A DNA stretch of 64,000 bases from Agrocybe praecox (Eukaryota; Basidiomycota; Agaricomycetes; Agaricales; Agrocybaceae). The translations under genes were made by a program, and so were the position numbers. The notes beneath the pieces were generated by a model. That model was not told the origin of the DNA and ran no database searches. It worked only from the letters and a program-made list of their open reading frames with translations. Every line of letters starts with the position of its first letter. Within the stretch, counting starts at the first letter, position 1. The stretch spans positions 3,782,001 through 3,846,000 of the forward strand of contig OZ024841.1 in the NCBI GenBank assembly GCA_964017145.1. Reading direction: 5' to 3'. Of this stretch, positions 26,498 through 49,159 are shown piece by piece.

Positions 26498-26504
26498 GAC
26501 GTCT
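26498..26504. repeat. KDZ element target-site duplication, left
   Basis: GACGTCT here and at 40009-40015 flanks the transposon. Joining the flanks at one copy restores sequence matching the uninterrupted paralogous relic near 7900-7930. Confidence 0.8.
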
Positions 26505-27429
26505 CAGGTACCCATGTTACAGTGTATCATATACAACGATAGAAAGAGTGCCTACAGTGTAGCGCTTCCAACTGATTCAAAGATCTCTTTGAATCTTTCT
26601 ATCCTAGGTGAACCCAAATAGGAAAGTAGGTATTGTAGGGGTAGGGCGGTAGTAGGTAGGGGTAGGGCGGTAGTAGGTAGGTTTGGGTAGGGTATTGGGA
26701 GTGCGGTCTGGGCATGGTAGTGGTATTGCTGCAGGGGTAGGATACAGGTATTCGGGTTGGTATTAGGACTGGGCACGGTAGCTTGAGAATCGACGCGGAT
26801 TTTCGCGTCTTGCCAATACACGCGGAACAGGTTTGGATCGTACAAAAGCGGTGCGCGTATATGGGGGCAGATCAGAATGGGCAGGTTAATAGGATACCGG
26901 GTTGGGTCGAAAAAGATGGGGGAACCTGGGTTGATCGTAGCACCGGGCGCGGTACTCGAGAATCGACGCGGAAACACGCGTTTCTTGAATACACACGGTA
27001 CTGGGTTGATTGTAGCACTGGGCGCGGTACTCGAGAATTGACGCGGAAACACGCGTTCCTTGAATACACGCGGTACTGGGTGCATCGTAGCACCGGGCGC
27101 GGTACTCGAGAATCGACACGGAAACACGCGATTTTGGAATGCACGCGGTACTGGGTTGATTGGAGCACCGGGCGCGGTACCCGAGAATCGACGCGGAAAC
27201 ACGCGTTTCTTGAATACATGTGGTACGGTACTCGGATGGAACAGCAAATTGAATGAGCGCGGATTTTTGTGAATGAACATTTTTAGGTTTGGGGTGTCCA
27301 GGGGCTGCATTGAGATAACCACGAGGTCACCCGGCTATGTAAGTGAAGTAGACTAAAATGTGTTTTCTTTAAATCAAATTGGTATTGATTCGTCTCACGT
27401 GTTTGCGCGTCTACATTACCCCAACTACG
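26505..27429 (+). repeat. KDZ left terminal inverted repeat
   Basis: About 925 bp, matching the reverse complement of 39239-40008. Differences are mostly point changes plus two additional copies of the 75-bp minisatellite unit. The inner edge is near ACCCCAACTACG at 27418-27429. Confidence 0.88.
26941..27235. repeat. 75-bp minisatellite in left TIR, about four units
   Basis: Units start at 26941, 27016, 27091 and 27166; the last is incomplete. Each begins CACCGGGCGCGGTACTCGAG or a close variant and includes GACGCGGAAACACGCG. A degenerate relative lies at 26785-26825. As 75 is a multiple of three, the tract is open in several frames and yields repeated peptides that I do not take to be real. 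Confidence 0.9.
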
Positions 27430-27658
27430 TTTACTTTCATATCTCCGCGTCTTGCATTCTCGTGTGTCTATACTGTACCCGAGCTAAATTCTCTCTGCTA
27501 TATTCTTTCAATTCTACCCGTGTTGAGGCATTTCTATCACGCAGCAAATATTTTTATTACAATTAAAAAAAAAAGGCTCGGGGGGAAGGGAGGACACGCG
27601 CAGAACAAGATACTAAGTACTTTTTTTTAAAAAAAAACCCCCGCGTCGAGAGAAGCAC
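27430..27658. other. KDZ left subterminal region
   Basis: Non-coding, between the left TIR and the 502-aa gene. It contains TATCTCCGCGTCTTGCAT near 27440-27457, the reverse complement of the unit that is repeated in the right subterminal region. A short A/T-rich stretch lies at 27560-27640. Confidence 0.5.
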
Positions 27659-29233
27659 TCATGCATTTTCATCTTCAGGGTGAGCGAAGAGGGACGCTTC
27701 AATGGACTCAAAAGCTTCGAGTGGGTAGCGAGCACTCGCAGTAGCAAGGGAATGTTCCAGGGCAATCTCTGCTCCACTTGTACCATCATCATCCTCACTG
27801 TCACTATCATAACTCCCACTCGCTTCCTCTTCGGAGCTGCCAACGTATTCTGCATCCGCCTCGCTCTCTTTGGCCACATTGTCAACATCCATTGGAATAT
27901 CTGTGCGCGTGAACTCGAGGTCGCTCCACGCGTCAATCATCTCGCGTTTAATAGTATGAGTGACCGTGTCAGAAGAGTCGATTTGAGGACCTGACAGCGG
28001 GGCGAGGCTTTGTGAGTTCGACGCGGAGGGCGTGTCTTTCGAAGGTTTCTCGGTGAAGTCGATGGCGTCCCATGCCATGGCAACTAAGGGATCCTTCAGA
28101 ACGCGGGTTGATGGCTTGGTTCTCTTGGAGACATTTGACGCGATATGGATCGCGCTAAAATCTAAACCTTGCCATTCCTCCGCCACTTTTTTAGTGTTGC
28201 TGGGTGTGTTGACATTGGAAGGCCCGTCCAAGGAATCGTCTTTGGCTGGGCGGGTGGTAGAAAATGCGGTTTTAATTTTTTTGCGTGGTGCTGGACGCGC
28301 AGTCTTCTTCACCGGTACTTCGTCACCGCTGTCGTCCAAGACGATTGGATGCTTAACAGTGGCAGGGGTGGTAGGTCGACGCAGGGTTGAGGTCAAATCC
28401 AAAGACCCGAGATTCACAATGTTTTTAGGAGTGGTGGACTTTGTTGGAAGCACCGGGTCTATTGTTTGAACACCAATGCTGACCATTGCCGGCGATTGTC
28501 TGGCGTGTTTCCCATACAAGAGACCCTGCAGGCCATTCAGTGCATCGGACGCGAGTTGGCGGTTGAGCAGGCATGTCCAACAATCCTTTGCCTGTGGTAC
28601 GATGACTCGCTGCATGGTGGTGGCAATGGCGGGGTCACCTTCTGCTATTTTGGGACTTAATGTTCTCGGCACCGCGTGTTCGTGGAAAGCAAGTGCCGCG
28701 TCGATGTCACCATATTGAATATGAGGGGTGATTCCGTTCGCCGGCTGTTTTGGCATGGTCCAAAAATCGCGATAGTACGCGGTAACCTCATGCCATGGAT
28801 CTTGCGCATCAGTGCCCGCGTCGACGATTTTCTTAACAGCGGGCGTGATGTCGATGACCAAATTGGCGTCGACACCAATACTCCCACCATATGACTGAAC
28901 TATGGAGCGCAAGAGAACCGGTACATGGAGTGGAAGGCCTGACGCGGTGCCCAGACCCAGACAGATCATCCAAGTTTGCTAAATAAAAATAAAAATGAAA
29001 TGCTTAGCAAAGGAATCATGTGATACTATTGATCACCGACTAACCAATTCATCAAAAAAGAGGGAAGTCAGCCATTTGGCCCTCTCTCCCGTAGTATTCA
29101 TAATTTCTCGTAGGATAGGTCGCATGCGGGAGTCACCGTAATCAAGACATTGTTGCCAACGAAGCTGGGCTTTTGCTGCATCAGGGCTAGCAGGATAGGA
29201 GGGGTCAAATAAGTGACAAGGAATAGCGGGCAT
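27659..29233 (-). CDS. KDZ-borne acidic protein of unknown function (502 aa)
   Basis: Two exons, 29233-29045 and 28978-27659, with a 66-nt GT-AG intron (phase 0). ATG 29233 opens MPAIPCHLFDPSYP. I recognise no domain. The N-terminal ~190 residues look globular (GLGTASGLPLHVPVLLRSIV). The rest is low-complexity. It includes a basic stretch (PAPRKKIK), a possible SUMO-interacting motif (HPIVLDDSGDE: hydrophobic core followed by acidic residues) and an acidic Ser/Asp/Glu-rich part before the C-terminus. It is transcribed in the same direction as the transposase just upstream. Its place inside the TIRs makes it transposon cargo or an accessory factor; the function is unknown. Confidence 0.75.
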
Positions 29234-29447
29234 CTTGGTGAAGTAAGTATGAAAGAAATGACAGGATTTGAATTGGTCACAGATAATCGCTCAATAGTCA
29301 CGGATGTGTCATCTTGAAATAAAGTATCTAGTCACATGTAATGATATAACCAAAATAGCAAGACGCGAGCGCGTCTTTTGGTAGGCGGAAGGAAAGACAC
29401 GATTGCGACTCCTGGTACGCGGTAGTCCAATACGCAAATCTACGACT

Positions 29448-32400
29448 TCAGTTCGGAGCCTCATAATCAGCGTTGTTGGTGGAAAAACGAACGTGAGCGC
29501 GGTTAGCAAGCTCAGTCCACTGAGAACATTGCCTGTTTGCGTACGCAATTGCTCCCATGGAAATCCCTGGAGAATTGGCCTTGACTTCATTCCAATCATT
29601 CGCCTTCTTCAAAAAATAGCGTACGGTCCATTGCATTTCATTGGTAACCAGCTTATATTCTTCGTTCCAGCGTTGAGATAATGCTCGTCCGCGTAGCCAG
29701 TGGACGCGTTTAACTGTCAAGAGACGTCATTATCGCGTCTTCAATGTCTTCGGTGTACTCACATTCAAGTAGCGCGGTCGGATCCGCAAGCGCGTTTTCA
29801 ACAGTATTGCCCTCTATTCTAATTGTCACCGATTGCCAGATCCAGGACAGCCTAACTGCAGTTGTGGACCCACGTTCATTGTAATTCAATATAGCTGTAC
29901 TGGCGGCAATGTCCTCACACGCAAGTAGCTGATATTGATTCAGGGTGGTATCGTCGGCACCTAGCATAACAAGGCGACAGCGAACACGATTATATGTCCT
30001 CGCGTGGAACGCAATCTTTGCATTCATTTCATGTAAGGCTGTACGTGCGCGGGTGCGAACCTGAGGTAGATTGCCAGTCCGAATCAACGCGGAATACTGA
30101 AAGGACTTGTCCGCAATGAGCTCCTGTAGATGTGCTAAGTGCTTGGCAGCCTGCTCCACGCGTAGTTCTAACTCTTCAACAATGAATTGCCCATGCGTGT
30201 TGCCGTTGGATGGAAGACAAATCATTTGCTTTTCAATAGGTTGATCGCCTTCTGGTGGAAAAATTCCCACCGGTGGATATGCAACCCCCGCGTCATTTGT
30301 CGCGTCGTTGCCTGTCATGGTCGTCTGTCCATCCCAGTCGATGTCGTCCCCGACAAAAGCTAGGTTGGCTGGACCGCGTTCATAAGTAATTCCTGCCTTC
30401 ACCTGTAGCTCTGCCAAGTGAAGAAAGTATGTTTTCAAAACCTCGCGTAGTTCCTCAATTTTACTTTGCTCAGTTTCATCGATTACGCGACCAATGCCTC
30501 GGACGCGATTCATAATCTCGATTCTAATTCAAGATTAAACACTACACATTGTACAGATATAGTGGAATGCGGACATACTGATTCTCCTCCACAGTAAGAG
30601 CAAATTCAAGCCAAGCATATATATCAGCACCTCCAATGCGTGAGTTATCACGCGTCTGCTCGACTGATCTGCCTGTAGCGCGTTGTCCGACGGGAATATA
30701 AATATCCATTGCTTTCACATCTTCATATCGACGCGATTCCGCATCATTGATTTCCTCAGTCCATTGTCGAAGTACATGGGCGGGTATATTGGTGCAAAGA
30801 TTGTTGAAGTAGGTGGTTATATCTTCTTTCATAATTGAGGCCTTTGTGAGCCGCCGACAGAGATAACTTGCTATGGACAATGCCTTTCTGAAGTTCGAGT
30901 CATTCGCGTGGTCGTCCAATATTTCGGCGCGGTGAGCAAGTGTCGCGGTACGCGCTGCTTGCGAAATCCTATTGAGGGTACTCCAGAGACTTTCCAAAAT
31001 TTCGCCACTCGTTATTGCAGAGCCAGGGATGAACGATGGCGCAAACCGGAAGAAACATTCGTCTTTATGCCCGTGGACGTGGAACATGCCAATCGCGCGA
31101 TCGATCTGCATCCCGGGTGGCAAAAGGTGGCCAATTCGAGCGAACAAATGAACTGAATATTGACATGCAATGTCATAGATTAGAGTGACCCCTTGTTCCA
31201 CAGTTACACCGGTGGTCCGAATAGCCTGCATCAACGCGTAGTCGACATTTTTCTGTTGTTCGCCTTTGAAGAGGTCAACAAGCGCGTTCGGGCTGAAACA
31301 CCCGTGTCGCGAACACGCGACACCTACAACGCCGGTCACATCGCATGATTTCGATGTTTGTTTGGCAGTTTGGAGAACCTTGAACCGGTGCTCGCAAGGC
31401 GCTTTCTGAAGGATTGTGAGATATCTGGAAGAAATAGAGACGTGTCTAATGCTTACCGTTGGCCGTTCAGCTGCAGTCTTCAGAAAGTTGGTGTAATCTT
31501 CGCGTTTTGGAGCCATCCCGGCTCCATCAATTAACCAATAGTTGCGTGAAGGCGCGACAGATCTGACATGGTCAGCTTTGAAGTTTCCATCTGCTACAAA
31601 GACGCGACGGTACATCCATTGATCGCGTCTTTCGCGCCAATCCTGCGGCAGATTAATATCTACCTGAGGACATGCTGGACAGAAAATGGCCATCTCCCCA
31701 TGCGTGGCTTCTTCAGGTTTCTGACCATTATGACCATACCCAGACCATTTCAGTTTTTTGAGCCAGCGCCAAAGACGCGACATCCTTCGGAACTCGTTGT
31801 GCAAGTCGACCACCTCGGATGGTGCCAATGGAGAAGTAATCCTCCTCAACATGTTGTAGAAGTTGTACGCGGATGTATGGAGCTCTAGATTGCTTAAACG
31901 GAAACCGTCAAGAACCTGTACTGTGAACAAAGTACGGATTATTTTGAAGCTTGCCGGGACCATATGGCTGGCTATGAGATCAACGGGGAGAAGGCCCATT
32001 CCTCTGCATTGACAGGAAACCATGCCCAGGTAGTGTATGCCAGTCGTATGGACAACACGCACATATGACGCGTGATAAGTTTCGTGCAACATGCTTTCGG
32101 AAGCGGCACCGGGAGCTGTGTGCATTTCTGCGTCCGCGTCTTCCTCATTTTCGTCGTCACTGTCCATATACGCGGGGATAAATGGGTCATCTATACGACC
32201 CGGCATCTCATCGTCCCACTCGTCAGATTCCACATACGCGGACTCCCGATCTGTCGAGTCGAAGCCGCGCTCTTCGTTTCTATGATCTGTGCTTATGTCG
32301 TCCGCAGAACGCGTTGAATCCAAAGAAACACGCGGTACCGTGTCTTGCTTTTGTGCTTGATATTGGTGTGCAATTGCCCGTTGTTCCTCCACGTCCTTCG

Positions 32401-33138
32401 TCTCCTGATGCTTTTCAATTACATTAATTTCGTGGAGCATACTGTTGCACAAAGGAACACCTTCATGATGTGGAATGAGAAGGTAACATCCTGTTTGCCA
32501 CAGCTTGCTTGGCACATAAAACGACCCATTCCACCTCTCGACGCGGTGCAAGGTGTTGAATCTATGGCTAGTTCGCATGCATCCGCGACAGAGTGTTGGC
32601 GAGGTGAGACAATCAAGACAACGCCATAACGCGAACTTGTCTGTGCAACTTGGACAAGACGCGGCCTCCGGTGACAACGCTTCGCGGCTTAAAAGGCCTT
32701 CAAGAAGACCCGGGGCGCGTTCAACAAACTGGCGAACATAATCGCTCTGAGTCTAGAACAAATATGGATTAGCTTTACCTCAGGGTTATCAACTGTATGT
32801 ATACGCACGCGCTTCTGCGGTAAATCAACGGAATGGGCGTCATCGTTGTCGGTTAAGGCCGCAACGGGCGCCTGTTCCTCGTCGTGTTGTGGCAATGCCA
32901 TATTTGCGGATGTGCGGGCGCTTTCACCATGCGTTGTGGGTCGGTTTGTGTTATCTTCAGGACGCGGTGTGTTTACCCTAGAGGGAGAGGCGGAATTTTC
33001 TTCGGAATGAGCCAATAGATTTGTTCGTTTGCGCTTTTTCGTCACCCGGCTGGGCGGTTCCTCATCAGATTCGTCAAAATAAGCAACAACCTGCTCATCG
33101 CGGTCATAGGGCACATCCGTTTTTTTGGACCTTACCAT
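29448..33138 (-). CDS. KDZ transposase with CxC2-type cysteine cluster
   Basis: Five exons: 33138-32809, 32752-31457, 31405-30579, 30523-29763 and 29713-29448, giving about 1159 aa. Introns are 56, 51, 55 and 49 nt, all GT-AG, and phases agree across every junction. After TQSDYVRQFVERAP comes the cysteine cluster CPSCTDKFALWRCLDC ... CRGCMRTSH (about residues 142-172). The DDE core shows VFVADGNFKADH (D near 498), YDIACQYSVH (D near 620) and SGEILESLWS (E near 680). It also has GVACSRHGCF and a C-terminal part (WLRGRALSQRW) typical of KDZ proteins. The second intron is a multiple of three, so an unspliced frame reads through it. The DDE triad and frame look intact, so the enzyme may be active. 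Confidence 0.88.
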
Positions 33139-33433
33139 TCTTGAAGATGTAGTCTGTTATCTGTTAGCCTTATCTACAAAGTTTATATACTACTTTCGGA
33201 TTACTTATTTTTATTCCGACTTGATGATCAAGGTGGATACGAGTTCATCTTTACCGCGTTGCATCTTTCTTACTTCGAGTTGAAACGATTAGATTCGGTG
33301 AAATGCACTCCTGCCATGTGTATGTACATGTGCAGTACACAATGCCTCTCAGCAAACATGTGTCTGTTGCCGAACATCAGGCAATATATAAAAGGTTCAG
33401 ACTGGATGCAATCCATTGCCATAGAACAGAACA
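33139..33433. promoter_or_regulatory. Shared promoter region of divergent KDZ genes
   Basis: This 295-nt gap separates the start of the transposase (minus) from the start of the 641-aa gene (plus). It must hold both 5' regions. An AATATATAAAAGG stretch at 33383-33395 could act as a TATA element for the plus-strand gene. No other motif stands out. Confidence 0.5.
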
Positions 33434-35596
33434 ATGCCCCTCACTCCCAACATGTTACAACCTACTGATGCGTCAAACACAATACCATGGTTATTGAATG
33501 ACCAGGAGCGACGTATTGCGAAACCATTCCGGGCTGAATACAAACGATGCGCGGATCCTAACGAGCGCTGTTTGTTGGCAAAGAAAAAGATTGTGCCGTT
33601 GATATGTGCCTATTGGGAAGATAAAAGAGGTCAAATATCTGATGTTCGCCTCCACATCAAGGTTGGTCTTGATTCTTGGAGACATGCATCTTTCAGCTGA
33701 ACCTAGTGCAGCGTTTGGCCTCGTTCACTGTAAATAATTGGCGACTTAACCGGCCCAAACCCATTGGTTCTGCAACAATCCGCGTGAAGCTCAACGAAGT
33801 CACTTATCAAATGTACCAAGACGCGATCGATGCTAACATTGCGGTGGCTTTGGGTGTTGACAACGCGAACGGCTCCCACAAAAACTATCTTGGAGCGCGT
33901 ATGTCTGCGATCAAAAAGTTTTATGAAGAGTTGACACCGGAACAAAGAAAAGAGGTAGAACGCGAGGCCGCGCGTCGAGAGCGGTATGGCCTAAATCTGG
34001 AAACCAAACGCAAGTACGTATCGCTGCTGTTTTTGAAGACGCGCATTATTTATGTGATATCATAGATTACGCTGGAGGTATTCGAAAGCGCGCTTCAATG
34101 ACGCGGCGCGGAAGAATTTCTGTGAAATGGATATTTTATCCATCAGTTTTCTGCTCCATAAAAATAAGGAGGGGGATACTGTTGTAACACTGTGAGATAT
34201 TCAACCATACTAACTACGCGAAACTAATATGGATTCAGTCACGACCATATGCATGAATTGCTTGGACTCGGCAAGTCAATCTCCTTCAAGAAATTCGATC
34301 CCATTGGTTATCAAGACGCGCATCGCGCGGTTGCCAAGTGGTTTGTGGCCTTACGAAACGCGCTGCAGATCGCCGCACAAGAATCTGTTCAGCAACACGC
34401 GGAGCCCATGACTGATGGAGACCCAGACCGTGCATGTCTCGTTACGCCCAGTGGCATCCCTACAGATTTATTTCCAGTCGGCCGTGTGCACTTGTATAAT
34501 GGGGTCGAACCTATTCCTCTTAAGGGGGATTGTTGGGACAAAGATAGCGACGGCCTGCCGCGTATGAAAGCAAACTGGCGCACCCACGCAAAATCTCGAA
34601 TTGCGTTGATAAGTTTATACAAGAAATATATTTCTACCCACTTCGGTATGTGCATACTTTAAACACTACTTCCAATAAGACTCAGATACCTTGTAGCTCT
34701 TGCCTCCAGCTCTTCTAGACAACCTCCGTGGGCAGCTATTGCAGCAAAGCCTTCGGATTTTGTGGATCCCGAATGTTTTCCCATTGGTGCTATGTCAAAA
34801 TTGCCGGAGAACATCAGCAAAGAGGAATTCCAGTTGTTTTTTGAACATATTGTCCACCGGCAGCAAACGTACACCTCACTTTACAAAGTATTTCACTTCA
34901 AGCAAATTACCTCTTCACGAAAGTCATCAGAGTTAGAACCAGCGCGTTATCCTGAAAGCATTACAGGGATTTCGACAACACAAGACACACGGAAGCCGCG
35001 TACTCCGAAGAAAAAAAAGAAAGTAAAGACATCTGATATTCCGTCTCAATTAGTTGTAAGTCTTTTGCACATATCTTGTTTTGGTTAATGTTGATATAAA
35101 AGAAAAGGAAACACTTGATGTTGGCAACTTGCAACAACCCGCGTCTTTCCCCAACGCAGATTCAGATCAACAACAATCCGCGTCCGTCACTAACTACGCG
35201 CCTTCTACGTACACAGATTCAAATCAACAACAATCCGCGTCGGACTCTGAAACCACAGCTACCGCGTCTTCATCAAACCTCGCGTCTGTTACTCAATACG
35301 CGTCTGCTATATACGCAGATTCAAATCAACAACACCCCGCGTCTCCATCGGAAAACACTGCTACCGCGTCTTCCTCACGCCCCGCGTCTGTCACTGAAAT
35401 AACAGCAAGCGCATCTTTCATACATGGGCCTGTCACTGAAACTACTGTCAGCGCGTCTATCACTAAACCGCCTGCGCGGACCGAAAGCATGAAAACACGA
35501 AGCAAAGGAAATGCTGAAATGTTGGCTATACAAGAAGCTGTGAGGATTCTTCAGCCTGGTAGGAGAAAGAGTAAAAGACTTGCAAAGAAAGTGTAA
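33434..35596 (+). CDS. KDZ-borne protein with C-terminal Ser/Gln-rich repeats (641 aa)
   Basis: Proposed exons: 33434-33661, 33697-34013, 34066-34191, 34239-34645, 34697-35055 and 35108-35596, about 641 aa. Introns 2-5 are 47-52 nt with good sites and matching phases. The first junction is uncertain, because the in-phase choice is only 35 nt. No known domain is evident. The first half has features such as PWLLNDQERRIAKPF, EELTPEQRKEVEREAARRER and FVALRNALQIAAQE, and resembles uncharacterised proteins of mushroom-forming fungi (weak, from memory). A lysine-rich stretch (TPKKKKKVKT) could be a nuclear signal. The last exon has tandem repeats built around DSNQQQSAS and ends in KSKRLAKKV. Its function is unknown. 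Confidence 0.68.
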
Positions 35597-35950
35597 ATGG
35601 CGTCCTTATCCTAATATGTAGGAGTCTTGAAATTTCTGTTTGTCGCGTCTTTAAATACCGCGTATAAAATATGTCCCTGATCCTAACATGTAGGAGTCCT
35701 GACATCTGTCTGTATGGCGCGTCATTCAATAACGCGTAGTTACAATACTTCAATTAACTTTGCTCGAATGAGCTTTTGTTTTTTCCCTCATTGATATTGA
35801 TTACAAAAAATTCAATTGGTGGTATACGAGATGTTTCAAAATAATAAACGAAATTACACTAGTCGTATACCAGAACTAGTGCAACAAACAAAAATATGCG
35901 ATGCCAGAAAAATGATTATAAAAAAACCTCCCCCCAGGCCCTGTGAAAAA
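35597..35950. other. Convergent intergenic gap in KDZ element
   Basis: It lies between the 3' ends of the 641-aa gene (plus) and the 740-aa gene (minus). A short direct repeat, CCTAA(T/C)ATGTAGGAGTC, occurs near 35609-35626 and 35682-35699, together with CGCGT motifs. No gene seen; it presumably holds both 3' ends. Confidence 0.5.
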
Positions 35951-38225
35951 CTATGGCGAACCCTCATAATCCAGCTTTTCCTCGGTTGGGCAAGGACTCG
36001 CACGGCCACGAACACGCGTCGACCTGCGTACCGGTTTAGGTCCTGGTGGAGGGTTGGATTGCGGTTGCGGTTGCGTTGACGCGGACGCGCTCGGTGTGGG
36101 TGTAAGCCCGGAATTGATGGACGCTGCCACAATAGGCACAGACGCGGTAGGAGCCGAAGGGGTGGGCACGGGCGCGTTGAGCATAGGTGTAGTGGGCGAA
36201 GGTGAGTTGGCCGGTGTGGAGAGAGTTGGAGGTAGTGGTGCGTAAGGCACCGGAGGATAAGTGTTGGGAGCGGAGGCAGGTGCGTGGGGTTGAGGGGTCG
36301 GAGGGGTGAGAGTGAAACACGGTGCCGCGCCTTCATTCACGCCAGACGACGCGGCCGTAGACAACGCGGACGCGTGCTTGAATGCCTCTACGTCACCATC
36401 GCGCATGGTGATGTCATCCTCAACGCGGGGAGCACTGGGGGTTCTTTCATCTTCCATGTTCACGTCGCGCGCGTGTTCAACCATTGGCAATACATCCGCT
36501 GGGGGACGCGACTGCTCAAGGTTGCCCAGACGCTTACCCACCGCCGCAATGGACTTGTGCAACCAGCTCAACTTCTGGTCGCACACAGCCTCATCGCTCC
36601 TCCTGCGCACATCCTCTTCATCCATCTTCTCCCGGTGCCTGGTGACGCGCTTGTACAACTTCAACGTATTGTCCTCCTGTCGCTGCTGGTGGTGCTCCAC
36701 CTCATCCATCCGCTCCTCCAACGATTTCACCCGTTCCTTCGCGTCCTTGAGGTCCACCGCGATCAAAATTTCGAGGTTGGAGACACGCTTGGTCAACTCC
36801 CGATTGATGTCGGCCTGGCCCACAATTTGGGCATACATCTTGTGGAAGTTGGAATTGACCAACTCCGCTGCGCGTTCCATTTCCTTGATGCGCTCCAAAA
36901 GCGCGGGGATCTGATCGATGACGCGGAATTCGCCATCACCAACGCGCGTCTGTGGAGTTGGCTTGTCTTTGGGTGGGGGAGTGGGCAGCGCGTCGTCTAT
37001 GATGTGTGGTGAGTCCTCCATATCGCTGTCAACCCTCTCAGAACTCTTGACGATCTTACCGTGCTTGGCCTTTTTACGTGCAGGCTCATCCTCGCTTACT
37101 TGCTCCTTTCCCTGCTGTCCTCGAAGAGGAAGTAAAACCGACATTTGAAGTGGATGCGATGGGGGTGGCATTGATGTCGATTGGGACGCGGGAGGATTGG
37201 TCCCTCTTGATGCTGAGGGATCTCTTGACGCGGATGGCTCAGACGCGCCGGGGAGGGATGACGCGGGCGGTGGTTTTGATGTTGAACTCGAAGACGCGCC
37301 CGGCGCCTCCGGTACCTTCGCTCCTTTCGGTGTTTTTCCTTCCCTTTCCAGGCGCGCTGCGGTGATTTCTTCATCGGTGGGTTGCAATGCCTTTGCGACG
37401 GTGAGCCCAGCCGCATCCCAAACACAGCGCTGCTTGAGGGATTTGCAGCGCACACAGTTCGGATGGTACTCTGCACGCTGCTTTGCTGATGGGAGGTGGT
37501 GTGGCAACCGAATCTCGCAAACCAATTTCTTCACGTCGCAGGTCTTGCAGGGAATGTGGTATTGCCTGGGTGGATTGCACGACAGGGTGGGTGGGTCGCT
37601 TCGGGGCTTCCTCTTCTTCCCCGCGTCTTTCTTCGGGGGTTTCTCCTCCTTAATCTCCTCGCGTTTCCTCTTCTTGTCCTTGGGCACGTAGTCTTCATCG
37701 TCCGTGGGCGAAGCATTCCAACTGGGCTCCGGTGCGTTCGAATTGCCAACACGCGCTGGCTCAGGTGCTGGAGTGACGCTCATTCGTGACATTGGGCCAT
37801 TCAAAATTGACGCTTCTTGAGGAGTGGGTACGCGCTTTTGAGTTGGAGCGACCGCGTCGAGTTGTTGGCGGAATACGCGATAGGCCTTCGCCTGCGTTTG
37901 CCGAAAGGCATCGTTCGCTTGTCCTGACTTGAACGCGGTGGAAAAATCCGTGACAAACTGCCACAGAAATGATGGGGGGTTGAGGGATTCTTCCGGAAGC
38001 GCGTTTGCCCTTTGGGTTGCCATAATATTGCCCTAAAAATAGGTCAATTTGAGCACCAATGATGTTGAACAATTGTGTACTCACCAATGATTGCTGTTGG
38101 GACTTCAAAACTTCCACAATGTCAGCATGTGGAGCGAGCAAAGCCTGTGAAATAACAGCTTCGCAGGCTCCGAGAGCGCGAAGATAGTCACGGGAGTTCG
38201 TGAATGGGGCACCACCAGCAGGCAT
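35951..38225 (-). CDS. KDZ-borne Zn2Cys6-like, coiled-coil protein (740 aa)
   Basis: Exons 38225-38085 and 38032-35951 are joined by a 52-nt GTGAGT...TAG intron (phase 0), giving about 740 aa. A basic, probably nuclear-targeting stretch (KDKKRKREE, GKKRKPRS) precedes a cysteine motif, about residues 209-250. There CKTCDVKKLVC and CVRCKSLKQRC each fit C-X2-C-X6-C and are separated by about 20 residues. This is the layout of a fungal Zn(II)2Cys6 DNA-binding cluster with a long loop. A heptad-rich coiled coil covers about residues 420-560, then a Pro/Ala-rich tail ends with RRSTRVRGRA, which resembles a minor-groove binding tail. I infer a DNA-binding, oligomeric factor encoded by the transposon; target unknown. 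Confidence 0.75.
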
Positions 38226-38379
38226 TGTTGAAGTTAAGGGGAAATATTTGAAGTCAAATGTATGGCGGAGGAGACAAGGAGGAAAGAAACGCGCCAGCTG
38301 AAAAAAATCAACCCACACGTGGCATCCAAATAAAGCCAAAGGACCCGGGTAAACACTATAGAACCATCAAAGTTTGTAG

Positions 38380-39238
38380 CATATATTTATAGCATGCGAA
38401 CGCGTAGACATGAGAAAATACAATACGCGATAGCATGCAAGACGCGGAGATACGATAGAATACGATGTTGGGAACCCATGGGGTACAAAATAGACGCAAT
38501 ATCAATCAAAGACGCGGGGATATGAAACAAGTACAACGGTGGGAATGTAGTCGGGTTACAGTGGACGCGCGGACACACAAGACTAGGGCATATCAAAGAG
38601 TAAAACGGTAGGAACATGTTAAAGGATAGTATAGACACTAATATTATTAACATTGCGGAACATAAATTTACAATGTTGGGAATTCAGTTTTGGATATATC
38701 ATACACAAATATCATTCAAGACGCAAGGAATACAAAGGTGGGAATTTACATAACAAAAGCTGTATCATTTGAAGACGCGGAAAAAAAAGGGTGGGAATTT
38801 AGTTAGGGTACACCATAGCCATGGATATCACTCAAGACACGATGAATACAATGGGTGGAATTTAGTTAGCGAACATAATCAACGCATTACCAGTCAAAGA
38901 CGCGGAAAATGCAAGAGTGACGAGTTGGGCTATATAATAGGCGCAATATCAGTCAAAGACGCGGAAGACGCAAGGGTGGCAATTTAGTTGGGGTAATGTA
39001 AACGAACGAACACGCGAGACGCGGAGATATGAAGCATTCCACCAGTGAGTATATACAATTTTGCTTAAGCAATATCAATCAAAGACGTGTAAAATACATG
39101 GGTGAGAATTTATTGGGAGTACATGCACCATAGATACACATATCACGCAAGACGCGACAAATACAAGGGTGCGAATTTAGTTTGTCTACAAAATAAATGT
39201 GATATCACTCAAAGACGCGGAAGATACAAGGGTGGCAG
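38380..39238. repeat. KDZ right subterminal repeat array
   Basis: About ten degenerate units, 50-110 bp apart. The core is TCAAAGACGCGGA followed by AAGGGTGGGAATTTAGTTG or a variant. Clear cores occur near 38505, 38770, 38895, 38955, 39080, 39145 and 39210. No coding potential. Subterminal repeats of this kind are often transposase-binding sites; that role is inferred here. Confidence 0.75.
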
Positions 39239-40008
39239 CGTAGTTGGGGTATTGTAGACGCGCAAACACGTGAGACGAATCAATACCAATTTGATTTAAA
39301 GAAAACACATTTTAATCTACTTCACTTACATAGCCGGGTGACCTCGTGGTTATCTCAATGCAGCCCCTGGACACCCCAAAACTAAAAATGTTCATTCACA
39401 AAAATCCGCGCTCATTCAATTTGCTGTTCCATCCGAGTACCGCGTGTATTCAAGAAACGCGTGTTTCCGCGTCGATTCTCGGGTACCGCGCCCAGTGCTA
39501 CAATCAACCCAGTACCGTGTGTATTCAAGGAACGTGTGTTTCCGCGTCGATTCTCGAGTACCGCGCCCGGTGCTACGATCAACCCAGGTTCCCCCATCTT
39601 TTTCGACCCAACCCGGTATCCTATTAACCTGCCCATTCTGATCTGCCCCCATATACGCGCACCGCTTTTGTACGATCCAAACCTGTTCCGCGTGTATTGG
39701 CAAGACGCGAAAATCCGCGTCGATTCTCAAGCTACCGTGCCCAGTCCTAATACCAACCCGAATACCTGTATCCTACCCCTGCAGCAATACCACTACCGTG
39801 CCCAGACCGCACTCCCAATACCCTACCCAAACCGACCTACTACCGCCCTACCCCTACCTACTACCGCCCTACCCCTACAATACCTACTGTCCTATTTGGG
39901 TTCACCTAGGATAGAAAGATTCAAAGAGATCTTTGAATCAGTTAGAAGCGCTACACTGTAGGCACTCTTTCTATCGTTATATACGATACACTGTAGTATT
40001 GGTATGTG
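39239..40008 (-). repeat. KDZ right terminal inverted repeat
   Basis: About 770 bp, the inverted counterpart of 26505-27429. It holds only about two 75-bp minisatellite units (39440-39589), which accounts for nearly all of the length difference from the left TIR. The outer end, read inward, begins CACATACCAATACTACAGTG. Confidence 0.88.
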
Positions 40009-40015
40009 GACGTCT
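40009..40015. repeat. KDZ element target-site duplication, right
   Basis: Second copy of GACGTCT. The sequence after it (GTCGTTGAGGTTCGCAGTCC) continues the kinase relic and matches the uninterrupted relic A near 7918-7940. Confidence 0.8.
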
Positions 40016-41855: not shown

Positions 41856-42642
41856 TGATGAGCGTGCCGTAGCTTTGAACGCGAAATTCGACTAAGTCCG
41901 CGTTTGTGGCACAGCCACTTCCGGATTTGGACGTGCGCATCAAACGCATCAAAAATGCGCTCGATATATCGAGGCCGTGCGCACCTGATTCCCCCGCTGA
42001 TATCTACATTTTTCGTATGTATTATAAACCCTTTTACATCTTTCCTCATCATTCTATGTTTTTATTCTTCAAAATCACGGTCTTCGAGCCAACCCCAATC
42101 TACCATGTGCGGCATCATTGCGCGCTCGGAAAGTGCCGAAACTCCGCCAACTTCGCATTTTTCAACGTTTCAACGTCTCGAACTTCAATTCCTGGCTTCC
42201 GCATGATTGTTAAAAATCTGTAAAAATACAATTCGTGTTCGTAACCATTTATTATATTTTCTTAGCCCATATGTTTGTTTTTCTTGGCTTTATTAATCCA
42301 TTTATGTTCGATTTTCTTTGTAGTAGTATAAATAGGCTTGCATATGTTGTAGATAAAAAAATACTAAGTTGTACCACTCGATTTCGGTCTCGTTCTTGTC
42401 TCTATTATATCGTCTACAGTTCTAGGCAACTAGAACTCTCGTTACTCGTCGTTATCTCGCTCCAGAGTGGTTCGAAGTGTCTACCTACACTTACACTCTG
42501 CCATTTCGTTTCACACTGGTTTTGAAGCCAGGGAAGCACGCTCGCACTTATCTACGCTATCTACATCGAGTATCCTTGGTGTACAACCGCGCTATATTTT
42601 TGTTTTTGTTGTTTCGCACCTAGGAGGCTCGACGGCGTATCA
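41856..42642 (+). repeat. Gypsy 5' LTR
   Basis: 787 bp, TGATGAGCGTG...GGCGTATCA. A TATAAATAGG box at 42327-42336 is a plausible promoter element of the U3 region. The open frames inside the LTR recur identically in the other LTR and are not genes. Confidence 0.93.
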
Positions 42643-42665
42643 TTTTGGAGCCCACCGCGAGGGTG
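42643..42665 (+). promoter_or_regulatory. Gypsy primer-binding site
   Basis: Three bases after the 5' LTR is TGGAGCCCACCGCGAGGG. TGG is the complement of a tRNA CCA end, as expected for a primer-binding site. I cannot say which tRNA. Confidence 0.55.
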
Positions 42666-42961
42666 CTTCTTAAATCATTGCGCCTTCAAACCAACCTCGT
42701 ACTCGTCAACAAACCCTTCGTGACGAGCTCATTGCTGCGTTCCAAAATCCCAATAACCTTGCCGACGACTCGCTCTTTATCCTCGTACCCGACTCTCAAG
42801 CTACACATAACAATCTACATTCACCTACTTCACCCCTTTATTCACCATCTGATCTACCACTTCCTTTATCTACATCGTCATCTACACCTTCACTCTCGTC
42901 TCTTCTCATCAATCTACCATCTCCAACTCCGTTTTCAACGTCACACATTACTTCACACATC

Positions 42962-45250
42962 ATGACTACTCGTATGCCAGCTCGTGGCGATCGTAGTGCA
43001 CCAATGTTCGACCCCTCGAAGCCATGAGAGCTCAAGAGATATTTCTCCGAGCTCGAGTTCCACTTCACAGCCGCTACGGTTACAGATCAAGAAGAGAAAA
43101 AGCGCCATACCACTCGTTATGTCAATATCAACGTCGCCGACATCTGGGAGACACTACCCGAATTTTCCGATGCTACCAAGACCTATGATGACTTCAAAAA
43201 GTCGATTAAGGAGCTTTACCCGGATGCCGATGAAGAATACAAGTATAGCATGTCGGATATGGACTTACTCATCGGGAACCGCAATCGTCAAGGCATTCAT
43301 ACACTATCTGATCTTGCTGAGTACCATTCGCAATTTCTGGCCATTACTAAATTCCTTATATCGAAGGGACGGCTATCCGACATCGAGCAGAAGCGTGCCT
43401 ACGTCCGAGGCTTCCAATCGTCTCTTTGGGCGAAGGTTTCTCAACGTCTACAGCTCAAATTCCTCGACCACCTTCCTGACGAGCCATACGATATCTCAGA
43501 GGTTCAAGCTGCGGCTCGTTTTGTTCTTCATGGGACTCATTCTTCTGTTATGAGTGCTGCCACCTCTTCCTCTGTATCCCCTAGTCTCGACGCAGTCGTT
43601 AAACCCGAGCATATCGGTTCTATCTTTACAGAATTCACCAAGTCAATCATTGAGGCTATCAATAGCACTCAGAATCGTCCTCGTTCGAATCCAACCTCAT
43701 CGGACTCTGGTACTCGAGATCTACGCTGTAACTTCTGTGGAAAGGATCACTTCATTCGAAACTGCGATCTTGTGGAAGAATATCGACGGGCTGGGAAGCT
43801 CAAACGAAATACAGAAGGCAAGGTTGTATTACCTACAGGTGCCTTCGTACCTCGGGACATTCCAGGCAACTTACTCAAGGATCGTATCGACGAATGGCAT
43901 CGCAGGAATCCTGGACAACTCGCCACAGCTTCTATTACAGCTAGCACTATGCTCCATACGATCTCATCTACCAACAATACATCTACCAACAGCTCTACAT
44001 CATCTACATCAACTTCAAACTCGTCTCAACCTATCTACCAACTCACTGCTGACGATCGGATCGCTTTATTGGAAGCTGAGCTTTTTAATCTTCGTGGTCA
44101 GCGTCCAGGTTTTGTTCCTCACATTCGTACTCGTGCTCAGAAAGCTAGGGCAACAACTCCAGAAGAAGATCAGGAGATATCGAACTCAGGCATTACTGAA
44201 GTACCATCTACATCTACATCTACATCCGATCAAGACACTTCCCAATCAACTTCTAATACCTCCAATGCCTCTACATCGACTAATTATCCATCCTCCGTCA
44301 ATAATGAGCCTGAACATCCATTTAGGAACGCTCAGGATGCCAGCTACCTTCCCCCTCAGCATAGGAACGTTGCTGCACCAAACAAGAATGCTCCAAAGAA
44401 AGCTGAGCCCGCATATCGTAACCAACCACCTATTCAAAGCCCAGACGTCGTATCTACCGTCTACAATCGCTCTCTCGATGCTCAAGTGACTATCTCGCAG
44501 TGTGAACTCTTGTCGATCGCTCCAGATGTTCGCTCACTGTACAGGGATGCTACCACACCTAAACGGAACATCAATCCAATTCCACAAGTACAAGCGAACA
44601 TGCTCGAGCAAGATAGGACTCAGGATCGTCTACACAACACCATCAGCTCAATGTCTACGTCTATAGCCATTCCGGCTAGCCAACATCGCAGTCCTCCCGA
44701 TGGATCTACAGTTATTCCTGATCGGTTCGAGCAATACTACAGGTCTCTTGGTCCTGGCGAAAGACCCGATCACAGCAAACTTATTGTTGCAAAGGAATCT
44801 GCGGCCCTTCGTTCTATCTTTCCCATCGTCGACAACTCAATGAAGATCGAGTGCATTCTGGATCCTGGCTGCCAAATTATTGCGATGTCCGAGGCCGTCT
44901 GTCATGCACTATCTCTCGTCTACGACCCCACAATTATACTCAACATGCAGTCTGCCAATGGAACCGAAGATCTCTCTCTCGGTCTCGCTCGGAACGTCCC
45001 GTTCTGCATAGGCAATGTCACACTCTACATGCAAGTTCATGTCATCCGAGAGCCTGCATACGACATCCTATTTGGTCGCCCCTTCGACGTGCTTACTGAG
45101 AGTGTAGTTCGCAATTTTGGGAATGAAGATCAGACCGTCACCGTGCACGATCCAAACTCGGGTCGTACTTCTACAGTACCGACTGCACCTCGTGGTATGC
45201 CTCGTTTTATACGCTCGGGAGATGAGGATTTTCACAGGCAGAGGATCTAG
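42962..45250 (+). CDS. Gypsy gag-protease, interrupted by one TGA
   Basis: One frame runs from ATG 42962 to TAG 45248 except for TGA at 43025-43027. The next in-frame ATG is at 43250 (666 codons to the stop). The frame is also open upstream to about 42674, without an ATG. After the stop come ELKRYFSELEFHF and other capsid-like sequence. CNFCGKDHFIRNC (C-X2-C-X3-H-X4-C) is a near-standard zinc knuckle. The protease region shows CILDPGCQIIAMSEAVCHAL, with DPG where retroviral proteases have DTG/DSG, then ILFGRPF. A Ser/Thr-rich linker lies over an ACATCT microsatellite (43965-44230). Pol follows in the -1 frame. Confidence 0.85.
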
Positions 45251-45300
45251 AGTCTTATGCTCAAGAACTGGCGCTTAAACTCGAGATCGTAGACGGTCAT

Positions 45301-48300
45301 ATGCACATTAGCGCCGTTCAAGAACTAGACTCCTCGACAACATCTTCACTCTCTTATTTTTCAGCTTGTAACCCGGACATTCCTTCTATCTCGCAATCTA
45401 TTCCCTCATTCGACGTATCTACATTGTTCTACACTCATATGCCTTCATCTCTCGACTCTCATTTATTTTCTAGCTCTTCAACTCACTCAGACAATTCCCC
45501 TCATGTTATTTTTGCTAACTCTAAAAAGAAATACAAGCCTGTCTCGAAGAAAATCCGCCCTATCTACGGTGAACTTCCGGACAAATATAGAGTCGTTCGC
45601 AACATCTCTGGTGATCCCCTTGCTATTCTACCTACCCTCGATCCTATTCCACCTCCTTTCACACCCACCGGTCGCTATACCGAAGAAAGAATGAAGCTTT
45701 TCGACATCGCACACCCTCCAGGCTTTCTCCTACCAGCTGAACGGGACCTCATGCATCATTTCATGATGTTACATCAAGATGGCTTCGCATGGAACGATAC
45801 AGAGCGAGGACATTTTCGTGAAGACTTCTTCCCTCCAGTAGAGATACCTGTCGTCCCGCACAAGCCTTGGATTGTCAAGAATCGACCTATCCCACCGGGT
45901 ATTTATCATGAGTTATGTAAACTCCTTCAGAAGAAGATCGACGCCGGCGTTCTTGAAGGATCCTGTGCTTCCTATCGTGGTGGTTGGTTTGCCGTCGTCA
46001 AAAAGGATGGAGTATCTTTACGCATTGTCCAATCGCTCGAACCGCTCAACGCCGTCACTATTGCACATTCAGGTGTCACTCCATTCACGGACCAAGTTGC
46101 GGAGCAGTTTGCAGCTCTCGCATGCGTCGGACTTCTTGATTTATTCGTTGGATACGACGAGCGTGCACTGGCTGAATCTTCACGGGACTACACCACTTTC
46201 CAAACGCCTTTTGGCGCTCTCCGACTCACTACACTTCCTATGGGATGGACTAACTCTGTTCCCATCTTTCATGACGATGTTACCTATATTCTACAACCAG
46301 AAATCCCTCATACAACCGTTCCCTACATTGACGACGTCCCTATCAAAGGCCCGAAGTCTCGTTACATTCTTCCTACTGGCGACTTCGAAATGATTCCGGA
46401 AAATCCAGGCATACGACGATTCGTATGGGAGCACTTTCAAGGCCTTAATCGCATCGTGCAACATATGAAGTACTCTGGCGGAACATTCTCCGGTTTCAAG
46501 TCGACTCTCTGCGCTTCCGAGATCACGATCCTCGGACACCGATGCACATACGAAGGCCGTCTACCCGATACCTCTTGTCTATCCGCTATCGTTAAGTGGG
46601 GACCTTGTAAGGACCTTTCTGACGTTCGATCGTTCTTAGGAACGATCGGGGTTTGCAGGATATTCATCCGCAACTTTGCCTATCGTGCACATCATCTCAC
46701 CAAGCTCATGCGCAAAGGAACCGACTTCCAATGGACTCAAGATCAAGACAACGCTCAAGCAGACCTCAAGAACGCTCTCCTCACGTCTCCAGCACTCCGA
46801 CCTATTAATTACACCTCTCCCTCACCTGTTATTGTTTCTGTCGACACTTCTTACATTGCAATCGGCCACATCCTCTCTCAATGCGACTCAGACAACCCCC
46901 GAGTTCGCTACTATGCTCGTTTCGGCTCTATCACTCTCAACGATCGAGAATCTCGTTATTCTCAACCTAAACTCGAACTCTACGGCTTATTTCGCGCTCT
47001 ACGATCACTCAAACTCTATATTATTGGAGTAAGGAACTTAATCGTCGAAGTGGACGCCAAATACATCAAGGGAATGCTTTCAAATCCAGATATCGCACCC
47101 TCAGCAACTATAAACCGATGGATAGCAGCCATCCTCATGTTTCAATTCGAACTAATTCATGTCCCAGGTACTCATCATGGTCCTGATGGATTATCTCGAC
47201 GTCGACATCAGCCCGAAGACGAACCCGAACCTGAAGATGACTTTGAAGATTGGATTGATAACATGCACGGTTTTCTACATATACTCAATCCGACACATCG
47301 ATCTCCTGTTATTCAACCTCCCATCCTTATCTACATTAATTCAACATCACCTCAAGACGTTTCTGTACCTCAAGACACTTCAAACCTTCCCGAACCGTCG
47401 ACATCTACATCTACCACTCCTTACTCAATTATTCCTCGATCTGACGCAGCGCACAAAGCCGACGAACGCATCCTCACGGTCCAGACTTGGCACGAGACAC
47501 TCACTCGACCGGACAACATGCAAGACAGTGAATACGAGAAGTTTCTTCGATACTGCACTGAGTTCTTTGTTTCTTCGCAATGCTTATGGAGAAAGGACCA
47601 TCAAGGACAACATAAACTCGTAGTACCGACTCACCGACGACTCTTCATCATTTCATCGGCTCACAACGAAGTTGGGCATCATGGCTTCTTCGCAACGAAT
47701 GCTCTTATCAGTGAACGCTTTTGGTGGCCGTTCATGGCCTTTGACATCTCGTGGTTCGTTCGGACATGTCATATCTGTCAACTCCGTCGCACTCAGAACG
47801 TACTCATTCCACCGGTCGTCGCTACGCCTGCTCCTTTGTTTGCTAAAGTCTACATCGACACTATGCACCTACCTACGTCCGAAGGCTTCAAGTACATCAT
47901 CCAGGCTCGTTGTTCTCTCTGCCACTTTCCAGAATTCGATAAACTTCGATGTGAGACCGCTAGGACCGTCGGAGAATTTATTATGCGAGATCTTATCTTT
48001 AGATATGGTGCATTAGTTGAAATCGTCACGGACAACGGCCCTCCAATTGTCAAAGCGATCGAGTACCTTGCAAAGCGATATCATATCAATTATATTCGAA
48101 TTTCGGGCTACAACTCTCGTGCAAATGGAATCGTCGAGCGAAGCCACTTCGATGTTCGTCAGGCCCTCTTCAAAGCATCGGATGGAGACCAATCTAAATG
48201 GTCTAGGTACGCACACTACGTCTTCTGGTCGGAACGAGTCACCATTCGTCGTCGCATGGGGTGCGCTCCCTATTTTGCCCTCACAGGAACGCAACCACTA

Positions 48301-48855
48301 CTCCCTTTCGACATCTCCGAAGCCAACTATCTTCTCCCACCTCCTGATTCTATCTTATCCACCACCGATCTCATTGCACGTCGCGCTATAGCTCTATCTA
48401 AGCGTCGAGACGATTTGGAGCGTCTACATTCGAAGGTTTACGAAGCACGACTCAAAGCTGCCGCTCGTTTCGAAGAGGAACACCTCAACACGATCCGAGA
48501 CTTCGATTTCAAATTAGGAGACCTTGTGCTCATTAGGAACACGAGAATCGAGAAGTCCCTCAACAGGAAAATGCGTCCTCGCTATCTTGGGCCCCTTATT
48601 GTCATATCCAGAAGCCGAGGAGGCGCCTACATCCTTTCCGAGATCGATGGTACCCTTTTCGATCGCCCAATCGCTGCATTTCGAGTCATTCCTTATTTCT
48701 CTAGGCAAAAACTCGATCTACCTCCTCTTGACGAATTACTCGACGTTTCCCTTCAACGTCTACGAGAGCTTGAGAGCTCTACATCTCCAGATCCCGAAGA
48801 CAACGACGCACTCGACTCAGATGACGAAGAAGACCCCTCAAGACATGAAGACTAA
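45301..48855 (+). CDS. Gypsy pol: reverse transcriptase, RNase H, integrase
   Basis: 1184 codons from ATG 45301; the frame is open from 45226 and so overlaps gag by 22 nt in the -1 frame. RT motifs include GGWFAVVKKDGVSLRIV, FQTPFGALRLTTLPMGW and the catalytic YIDDVPIKG. The RNase H has VSVDTSYIAIGHIL and LELYGLFRAL. The integrase has HNEVGHHG and CHICQ (zinc-binding), then VYIDTMHLP, IVTDNGPP and NGIVERSH as the D, D and E sites. No stop or frameshift is visible, so pol could be functional. The acidic tail after the integrase is typical of fungal gypsy elements. ATG use is uncertain; frameshift fusion to gag is likely. Confidence 0.93.
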   Translation: MHISAVQELDSSTTSSLSYFSACNPDIPSISQSIPSFDVSTLFYTHMPSSLDSHLFSSSSTHSDNSPHVIFANSKKKYKPVSKKIRPIYGELPDKYRVVRNISGDPLAILPTLDPIPPPFTPTGRYTEERMKLFDIAHPPGFLLPAERDLMHHFMMLHQDGFAWNDTERGHFREDFFPPVEIPVVPHKPWIVKNRPIPPGIYHELCKLLQKKIDAGVLEGSCASYRGGWFAVVKKDGVSLRIVQSLEPLNAVTIAHSGVTPFTDQVAEQFAALACVGLLDLFVGYDERALAESSRDYTTFQTPFGALRLTTLPMGWTNSVPIFHDDVTYILQPEIPHTTVPYIDDVPIKGPKSRYILPTGDFEMIPENPGIRRFVWEHFQGLNRIVQHMKYSGGTFSGFKSTLCASEITILGHRCTYEGRLPDTSCLSAIVKWGPCKDLSDVRSFLGTIGVCRIFIRNFAYRAHHLTKLMRKGTDFQWTQDQDNAQADLKNALLTSPALRPINYTSPSPVIVSVDTSYIAIGHILSQCDSDNPRVRYYARFGSITLNDRESRYSQPKLELYGLFRALRSLKLYIIGVRNLIVEVDAKYIKGMLSNPDIAPSATINRWIAAILMFQFELIHVPGTHHGPDGLSRRRHQPEDEPEPEDDFEDWIDNMHGFLHILNPTHRSPVIQPPILIYINSTSPQDVSVPQDTSNLPEPSTSTSTTPYSIIPRSDAAHKADERILTVQTWHETLTRPDNMQDSEYEKFLRYCTEFFVSSQCLWRKDHQGQHKLVVPTHRRLFIISSAHNEVGHHGFFATNALISERFWWPFMAFDISWFVRTCHICQLRRTQNVLIPPVVATPAPLFAKVYIDTMHLPTSEGFKYIIQARCSLCHFPEFDKLRCETARTVGEFIMRDLIFRYGALVEIVTDNGPPIVKAIEYLAKRYHINYIRISGYNSRANGIVERSHFDVRQALFKASDGDQSKWSRYAHYVFWSERVTIRRRMGCAPYFALTGTQPLLPFDISEANYLLPPPDSILSTTDLIARRAIALSKRRDDLERLHSKVYEARLKAAARFEEEHLNTIRDFDFKLGDLVLIRNTRIEKSLNRKMRPRYLGPLIVISRSRGGAYILSEIDGTLFDRPIAAFRVIPYFSRQKLDLPPLDELLDVSLQRLRELESSTSPDPEDNDALDSDDEEDPSRHED

Positions 48856-49159
48856 CCACACTCAAGATCTCAGTAGGGAGGAGAAGCCCTCCTTACATAT
48901 CGCATTTTTCCTCAATTCATCACATCATTCCCCTTTTTATTTTTATTCACAATGTTCTATATTTCTTACCTTCATTTTTGACACACCCTATTTCTTATTC
49001 ATTCACTTTACATGCCCCATCTCATACATTTTATTTGTTTATTTGACCTTGCCTTCACTTTATGGACTCATTTTCACTTATTTTCCCTCATTTTCGCTTT
49101 TATTCCATCCATACATTACCCCCTTTCGTTCTCGGCTGACTGGGGACAGTCAGTATTTC
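48856..49159 (+). other. Gypsy 3' untranslated region
   Basis: T-rich non-coding sequence between pol and the polypurine tract. A second copy of the tract sequence (CAGTAGGGAGGAGA) lies at 48870-48883, perhaps an internal plus-strand priming site. Confidence 0.55.

Follow-up and report, generated by a model that had tools for sequence, protein, structure and literature searches.

A dispersed, family-specific DNA word fills a four-gene KDZ transposon of Agrocybe praecox

Kyakuja transposons encode a KDZ transposase, carry 7-bp target-site duplications (TSDs), and have CA..TG termini; the first two families hold a TET/JBP gene and have no terminal inverted repeats (TIRs), as far as the available part of that report goes (Kojima 2025, PMC12730594). 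KDZ1-KDZ3 of Cryptococcus neoformans are large, TIR-bearing, and shown to be mobile, with CxC1 and TIRs of 139-241 bp; their TSDs measure 8 bp in KDZ1 and 4-8 bp in KDZ2 and KDZ3, and no accessory gene set or word array is described for them in the available extracts (PMC12810828). VANDAL/Hiun elements carry a family-specific short word at high density, and related VANC proteins act on different targets; the VANC21 words (YAGTATTAY) lie mainly in non-coding DNA, share one orientation, and are often tandemly repeated (Hosaka 2017, PMC5735166, in extract). Here, we analyzed a 64,000-nt stretch of Agrocybe praecox DNA (assembly GCA_964017145.1, contig OZ024841.1, positions 3,782,001-3,846,000; hereafter the window, to which positions without a contig name refer), in which a complete 13.5-kb KDZ transposon with CA..TG termini lies at 26505-40008. 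It is an autonomous-looking element of a lineage with four genes (AC, TP, SQ, and ZN) and no TET. Its most surprising feature, unnoticed in a preliminary description of this DNA, is a dispersed, family-specific word.

The element is bounded by the 7-bp TSD GACGTCT, read at both of its ends (26498-26504 and 40009-40015). The left TIR (26505-27080, + strand; aligned part 26509-27080; outermost bases CAGGTACCCATG) and the right TIR (39433-40008, − strand; outermost bases, read inward, CACATACCAATA) are 97.4% identical over 572 bp, and both continue into subterminal repeats. Compared with Kyakuja, as characterized in the accessible text, the element is alike in KDZ transposase, 7-bp TSD, and CA..TG ends, but differs in its 572-bp TIRs, the lack of TET, three other genes, and the dispersed word array. 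As TIRs of this length and identity stand against Kyakuja without TIRs, we do not file the element as Kyakuja. It shares large size and TIRs with KDZ1-KDZ3, insofar as these are covered by the extracts, and differs from them in TSD length, in CxC2 instead of CxC1, and in its longer TIRs.

Identification of the element and its four-gene set is nearly certain. AC (27659-29233, − strand; exons 29233-29045 and 28978-27659) encodes an acidic protein of 502 amino acids (aa). TP (29448-33138, − strand) encodes a KDZ transposase of 1159 aa with a CxC2 cluster in five exons (33138-32809, 32752-31457, 31405-30579, 30523-29763, and 29713-29448); its introns are 56, 51, 55, and 49 nt long, the first allowing a shorter alternative. 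SQ (33434-35596, + strand; six exons at 33434-33661, 33712-34013, 34066-34191, 34239-34645, 34697-35055, and 35108-35596) encodes 636 aa with a Ser/Gln/Ala-rich tail, and ZN (35951-38225, − strand; exons 38225-38085 and 38032-35951) encodes 740 aa with a Zn2Cys6-like cluster and a predicted long coiled coil. Splice sites were placed by hand from frame, donor, and acceptor; the models are based on frame and on a copy on contig C12 (E12), in which the same exons are open in all four genes. The TP open reading frame (ORF) matched the Pfam families KDZ (PF18758, E = 1.3e-44, 152.9 bits, cut-off 26.6) and CxC2 (PF18803, E = 2.6e-14), and the DGNFKADH, YDIACQ, and GEILE blocks are conserved. A search of 5.8 billion proteins returned 240 TP relatives; the 120 listed carry PF18803 and/or PF18758, the named ones among them are from Agaricomycetes, and the best are from Psilocybe, Flammula, and Agrocybe. 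No related transposase was confirmed in viral contigs. The preliminary description had proposed a complete KDZ element with an intact five-exon transposase, three further spliceable genes, and no TET/JBP gene. The TIRs, the TSD, and the Pfam KDZ match bear out the element; the transposase model is open throughout, the other three genes form single open frames, and no TET/JBP match was found inside the element.

The word ACGCG/CGCGT occurs 171 times between 26505 and 40008 (12.7/kb; 95 and 76 on the two strands), whereas the remaining 50.5 kb of the window hold 74 (1.5/kb). Its extended form GACGCGG occurs 42 times inside the element and once in the rest of the window. Genome-wide, GACGCGG was counted 5567 times in 59.17 Mb (0.09/kb vs 3.1/kb in the element), as frequently as its reversed control (5744). 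Exons hold 12.5 ACGCG per kb, intergenic DNA 14.0, and introns 6.9 (4 in 581 bp); the density drops sharply at the element borders, and the words are also dense in the TIRs and subterminal repeats. These window and genome-wide comparisons, together with the densities by clade given below, rule out host background as the source of the array. As in VANDAL/VANC, so far as the extracts describe it, a word is dense in its element and rare elsewhere, and the element-encoded proteins are variable. Unlike the VANC21 words, those of the window element are not mainly non-coding tandem words: they are about equally dense in exons, lie on both strands, and for the most part do not belong to repeats. The two systems also differ in superfamily, host kingdom, and proteins, and anti-silencing is here only proposed by analogy.

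The arrays might be a functionless compositional or mutational by-product of codon bias, tandem duplication, or a CpG-protecting context, which we consider rather improbable. Part of the non-coding array does consist of subterminal repeats of about 75 bp, ACGCG spacing is random (coefficient of variation 1.04 vs 0.99 expected), and the words of AC and of a second family, B, show no extra retention (see below). However, the strongest 6-mer in the element reached z = 26.7, whereas none of 40 Markov simulations exceeded 5.0; with the termini excluded (27600-38300), z was still 21.5; the sharp fall in density at the borders likewise argues against a by-product. So do synonymous shuffles that keep both protein and codon usage (300 per gene): in all four genes, ACGCG in the exons exceeded every shuffle, with 42 observed in TP (shuffle mean 12.4, maximum 22), 14 in AC (5.9, 13), 33 in ZN (15, 28), and 25 in SQ (7.3, 13). 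In the last SQ exon (35108-35596, + strand), all ten coding-strand CGCGTC words lie in one frame, read as GCG TCN (Ala-Ser); the DNA word here writes the Ala-Ser peptide repeat of SQ.

Related elements in the same genome carry other words. In an unrooted tree built from transposase segments mapped onto the TP protein of the window element, the families formed four groups: A, to which the window element belongs, with A2 (branch value 0.999); B; C with G (1.0); and D with E and F (1.0). A TET-linked KDZ and a distant KDZ paired with each other (0.99), the position of their branch being weakly supported (0.385). Word densities were tabulated for 19 sets, several of which are only parts of elements. 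ACGCG reached 11.8-14.3/kb in the five A and A2 sets and 0.5-1.7/kb in the other 14, host included; CGGYGA, 6.6-7.9/kb in the two B sets and 0-2.6/kb elsewhere; GCGGGA, 2.4-5.4/kb in the five C and G sets and 0.1-0.6/kb elsewhere; and GCGGCGC, 2.2-2.6/kb in the three D, E, and F sets and 0-0.22/kb elsewhere. Four transposase groups thus carry four words with block-diagonal densities. Five copies lie outside this table. Two of family A, on C182 and at C2:3305806 (E2b), are ACGCG-dense in the parts examined, and the decayed A copies on C10 and C65 have 0-8 ACGCG per kb. The family-B copy on C1 holds 25 CGGTGA and 16 CGGCGA (41 CGGYGA) in 11 kb. In the transposase exons of B, C, G, and F, the word count was reached by none of 300 synonymous shuffles. 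In D, the 5-mer CGCCG is strong instead of GCGGCGC, and F holds 24 GCGCC vs 4.2 expected. Overall, the case for a clade-specific word array under selection is strong in family A and good to moderate in the other groups.

Retention of the words between copies was compared with that of other CpG-containing k-mers; as k-mers overlap, the p values are approximate. Between the window element and A2, 36 of 44 TP words were kept (0.82), compared with 446 of 828 other CpG 5-mers (0.54, p = 1e-4) and 47 of 71 other two-CpG 5-mers (0.66). For ZN, the corresponding values were 15/32 (0.47), 125/550 (0.23, p = 0.002), and 14/52 (0.27). Between the window and the C12 copy, 104 of 133 words were kept vs 1565 of 2275 other CpG words (p = 0.011), and for family C (C7 vs C1) 13 of 18 vs 498 of 1007. 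In the ZN-SQ segment, words were better kept than other CpG words in the intact E12 (41/55 vs 499/824) and behaved like them in the decayed C10 copy of family A (15/48 vs 279/783), where 2 of 14 AC words were kept vs 107 of 323. That words in TP and ZN are kept more often than other CpG words in intact copies, with no such advantage in the decayed one, further argues against a by-product.

Of the unshared words listed between the window and E12, 38 of 53 were single CpG transitions, as expected from decay of 5-methylcytosine. Transitions at CpG were 3.6 times as frequent as those at other C/G positions in the decayed C10 copy (0.156 vs 0.044) and 1.9 times as frequent between the window and C12. 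That the words contain CpG and are lost mostly through CpG transitions could fit a role for the host, which would either use them as a silencing tag or bind them through a factor of its own that gives cell-cycle-timed expression (MBF-like and active at G1/S in the case of ACGCG), and ACGCG is indeed the core of the yeast MCB box. Nevertheless, we regard this as very unlikely: the groups use four different words in one host, promoter factors would hardly require exon-wide arrays, and a silencing tag would be lost, yet family A retains its words above background.

The three genes accompanying the transposase are not peculiar to the window element. The order AC, TP, SQ (on the opposite strand), and ZN is repeated in families B (on C9, C10, and C1), C (on C7), and D (C2:3667501-3682500). 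By segment, A and B share 54-73% aa identity in TP and 24-36% in ZN. BLAST with the family-A proteins found TP and SQ alone at the C and D loci; AC and ZN were therefore called there by position, composition, and Cys cluster or tail. Neither TIRs nor TSDs of families C and D were found in the stretches examined, and the B matches are inner repeats, so that element ends are established for family A only. A genome search with the first 474 SQ residues gave 27 loci; at 25 of them, a KDZ transposase match lies no more than about 5 kb away. This adjacency is our own count from two tables, the transposase table having scored 61 of 268 candidates, so that lack of a listed match proves little. One of the other two SQ loci has its transposase match about 39 kb away and looks like a split A2 element; the other, on the small contig C339, has none among the matches listed. 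Likewise, none of the transposase matches among the 61 scored lies near a fragment of AC at C11:175806 or near pieces of ZN found on C65.

Captured host cargo is ruled out by a set common to B and, by position, to C and D, with SQ beside transposases elsewhere; AC, SQ, and ZN are, near certainly, a standing set of the KDZ lineage in this genome. The preliminary description did not recognize the set; the three genes are not a unique cargo. The idea that they travel with the transposase is supported by the 25 SQ loci that adjoin a KDZ transposase, but it has exceptions, among them a copy on C6 that lacks most of SQ and ZN.

Copies of family A were found by TIR and gene searches of the 59.17-Mb genome; other copies with the same TIRs thus exist, as the preliminary description had proposed to check. 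Target-site duplication, the mark of a mobile element of the KDZ superfamily, was present in all four copies read at both ends, each with a different 7-bp TSD: GACGTCT (window), CCAGGAG (E12), GAATGTC (the C6 copy, E6), and GCCAGGG (E2b). E12 is collinear with the window element (92.8% over 11 kb), with four open genes. Between these two copies, at a dS near 0.14, dN/dS was 0.24 for TP, 0.30 for AC, 0.31 for SQ, and 0.56 for ZN; all four genes are therefore constrained, with ZN changing fastest, which answers the question of purifying selection raised in the same place. In E6 (C6:2967142-2978971), TP and AC are open, most of SQ and ZN is deleted, and an extra inverted ZN piece is present; as it nonetheless has its own TSD, it was perhaps mobilized in trans. 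In E2b (C2:3305806-3337782), ZN is interrupted by an insert of about 17 kb, the TP frame is broken, and SQ contains stops; its halves have 4 bp of the window copy in common, as expected of a short target duplication. The two ends of the element are not identical: the outermost 14 bp of the TIRs (26505-26518 vs 39995-40008) differ by five mismatches, and the end types CAGGTAC and CACATAC are also present in the other three family-A copies. Since both types recur, the two ends may have different roles.

No homologues of ZN or SQ were found among the 5.8 billion proteins at E up to 0.001; set beside the 240 TP relatives, this may reflect fast evolution, lack of annotation elsewhere, or sequences too repetitive for the search. 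AC and SQ showed no recognizable domain in Pfam scans, nor did SQ in a PDB profile search. AC carries a SUMO-interacting motif (SIM)-like VLDDSGDE, identical across the aligned A and A2 copies, and the N-terminal half of SQ is recognizable in other KDZ families. KDZ elements are said to encode extra proteins, among them one with a divergent HMG domain. A known HMG box in SQ is not supported: neither Pfam, at E up to 10, nor the PDB profile search gave an HMG match. In ZN, six cysteines form the cluster CX2CX6CX20CX2CX6C (37424-37549); this spacing is present in A and A2, B has an eight-residue spacer, and C has a similar cluster. AlphaFold, run on the single ZN sequence, gave a helix at ORF residues 372-507 (136 residues) with pLDDT mostly 84-96, which would fit a coiled coil. 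In Gal4-type proteins, the spacer between Cys 2 and Cys 3 is the DNA-contact segment. In ZN, it differs between clades with different words: family B has AAKPEGGL, family C MEKGIK, and family D RAKGST, compared with, for example, DVKKLV among the A and A2 copies. Spacer, sub-threshold Zn_clus similarity, predicted helix, and the highest dN/dS of the four genes make ZN the best candidate for a reader of the words, no more.

We tentatively propose, giving it somewhat less than an even chance, that the element labels its DNA throughout with a short GC word specific to its clade and read by one of its own proteins, most likely ZN, as a means of self-recognition. That ZN is the reader and anti-silencing the effect is a plausible hypothesis. 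The word would be a putative binding site; the Zn2Cys6-like cluster of ZN would contact the DNA and its 136-residue predicted coiled coil would form multimers, coating the element lengthwise, so that the acidic AC and SQ might act on their own family alone. Most likely, this would either counteract silencing by the host through CpG methylation and heterochromatin or bring the long element together for transposition. The earlier suggestion of a self-contained unit with its own regulators is kept as the best reading of the complete KDZ element.

The words could instead be bound by the transposase itself, or ZN could be a TnpA-like cofactor, the words serving synapsis or folding of the 13-kb element with no role in silencing. 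TnpA of EnSpm/CACTA, itself element-encoded, binds numerous short repeats near the element ends and can counteract methylation; its sites are subterminal only, and its elements have another transposase class. We judge such a role unlikely here. The words are dense in TIRs and subterminal repeats, and the word class tracks the transposase tree, as it predicts. But subterminal arrays would be enough for synapsis, yet the words fill the whole length of the element and its exons; the transposase diverges less than ZN between A and B, while the word has wholly changed; and a word array is absent from the two further KDZ stretches analyzed.

These two stretches bear on TET. The genome contains 11 TET/JBP matches, of which a single one, at C12:2720989-2721459, lies above the Pfam cut-off; PF12851 was not found among the window ORFs scanned, and the genome search gave no match in the window. 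The C12 match, which contains one TAG, lies some 1.6 kb away from a KDZ transposase whose own match is interrupted by stops; the two likely represent a decayed TET-positive KDZ element. The 5.1 kb examined of this TET-linked KDZ gave no match to the family-A SQ, ZN, or AC proteins; the genome search placed no SQ nearby, and there is no strong word (top 6-mer z = 6.6). Neither an accessory-protein match nor a strong word was found in the 9 kb examined of the distant KDZ on C4. Two contrasts are few, but they fit a sequence code in this lineage where others use TET.

Going further, a TET-less KDZ lineage may have evolved a whole-element barcode, a word of 5-7 bp per clade that also shapes its proteins, with a co-evolving Zn2Cys6 coiled-coil reader lifting silencing from its own family only, as an alternative to a TET demethylase; we hold this fuller version to be possible, though more doubtful than not. 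Transposons need recognition by their own proteins without harm to the host, and apart from plant VANDAL we know of few whole elements with a family-specific recognition code. In the portions of the literature on KDZ/Kyakuja accessory genes, anti-silencing, and self-recognition motifs available to us, no dispersed KDZ word array was found described. Four related groups with four words and fast-diverging co-encoded proteins in one genome would make coevolution of code and reader directly testable. If true, the barcode would represent a TET-independent escape from methylation for fungal transposons and a source of short DNA-binding domains of defined, related specificities.

Several observations weigh against word arrays read by ZN. 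(i) A Ty3/gypsy-like element in the same window reaches a 6-mer z of 12.5 (ATCTAC), so that z near 12-16 alone proves little. (ii) In the tree, B is a single sequence; family C has the weakest word, without sharp edges; and GCGGCGC is marginal in the transposase exons of E (2 words, reached by 4 of 300 shuffles) and not in excess in those of D (1 word, 86 of 300). (iii) AC words were not better kept, either between the window and A2 (6/14 vs 100/325, p = 0.24; other two-CpG 5-mers 11/24) or between the window and E12 (11/14 vs controls 233/324). Family-B words were kept less well than other CpG 6-mers between C9 and C10 (25/32 and 16/21 vs 0.86), although both copies have stops inside their transposase matches and may be dead. 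(iv) Zn_clus was the top Pfam match for short ZN segments of A, A2, and C, but below cut-off (E = 0.067, 0.023, and 0.34, respectively), with no match for D and none in the whole ZN ORF at E up to 1. Five of the six cysteines are visible in the family-D frame read, ZN gave no match to solved structures, and AlphaFold was confident in the helix alone, the Cys region being of low confidence. (v) Within A and A2, the spacer varies (DVKKLV, EAKKLV, TAKKSD, DAKKLD) while the word is constant. (vi) The contrasts are one TET-linked and one distant KDZ, each partial, in which divergent accessory genes could escape detection.

Two neighbouring features were noted by eye. The Ty3/gypsy-like retrotransposon occupies 42000-49900, 2 kb from the KDZ element, with ORFs at 43028-45250 and 45226-48855; TGTAGA/ATCTACA is overrepresented in it (6-mer z about 12), partly in apparent repeated ends. 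Further along, the ORF at 53106-54734 resembles a NACHT-type NTPase (GAAGAGKSAIGRTV), of the kind known from the mushroom NLR-like gene family.

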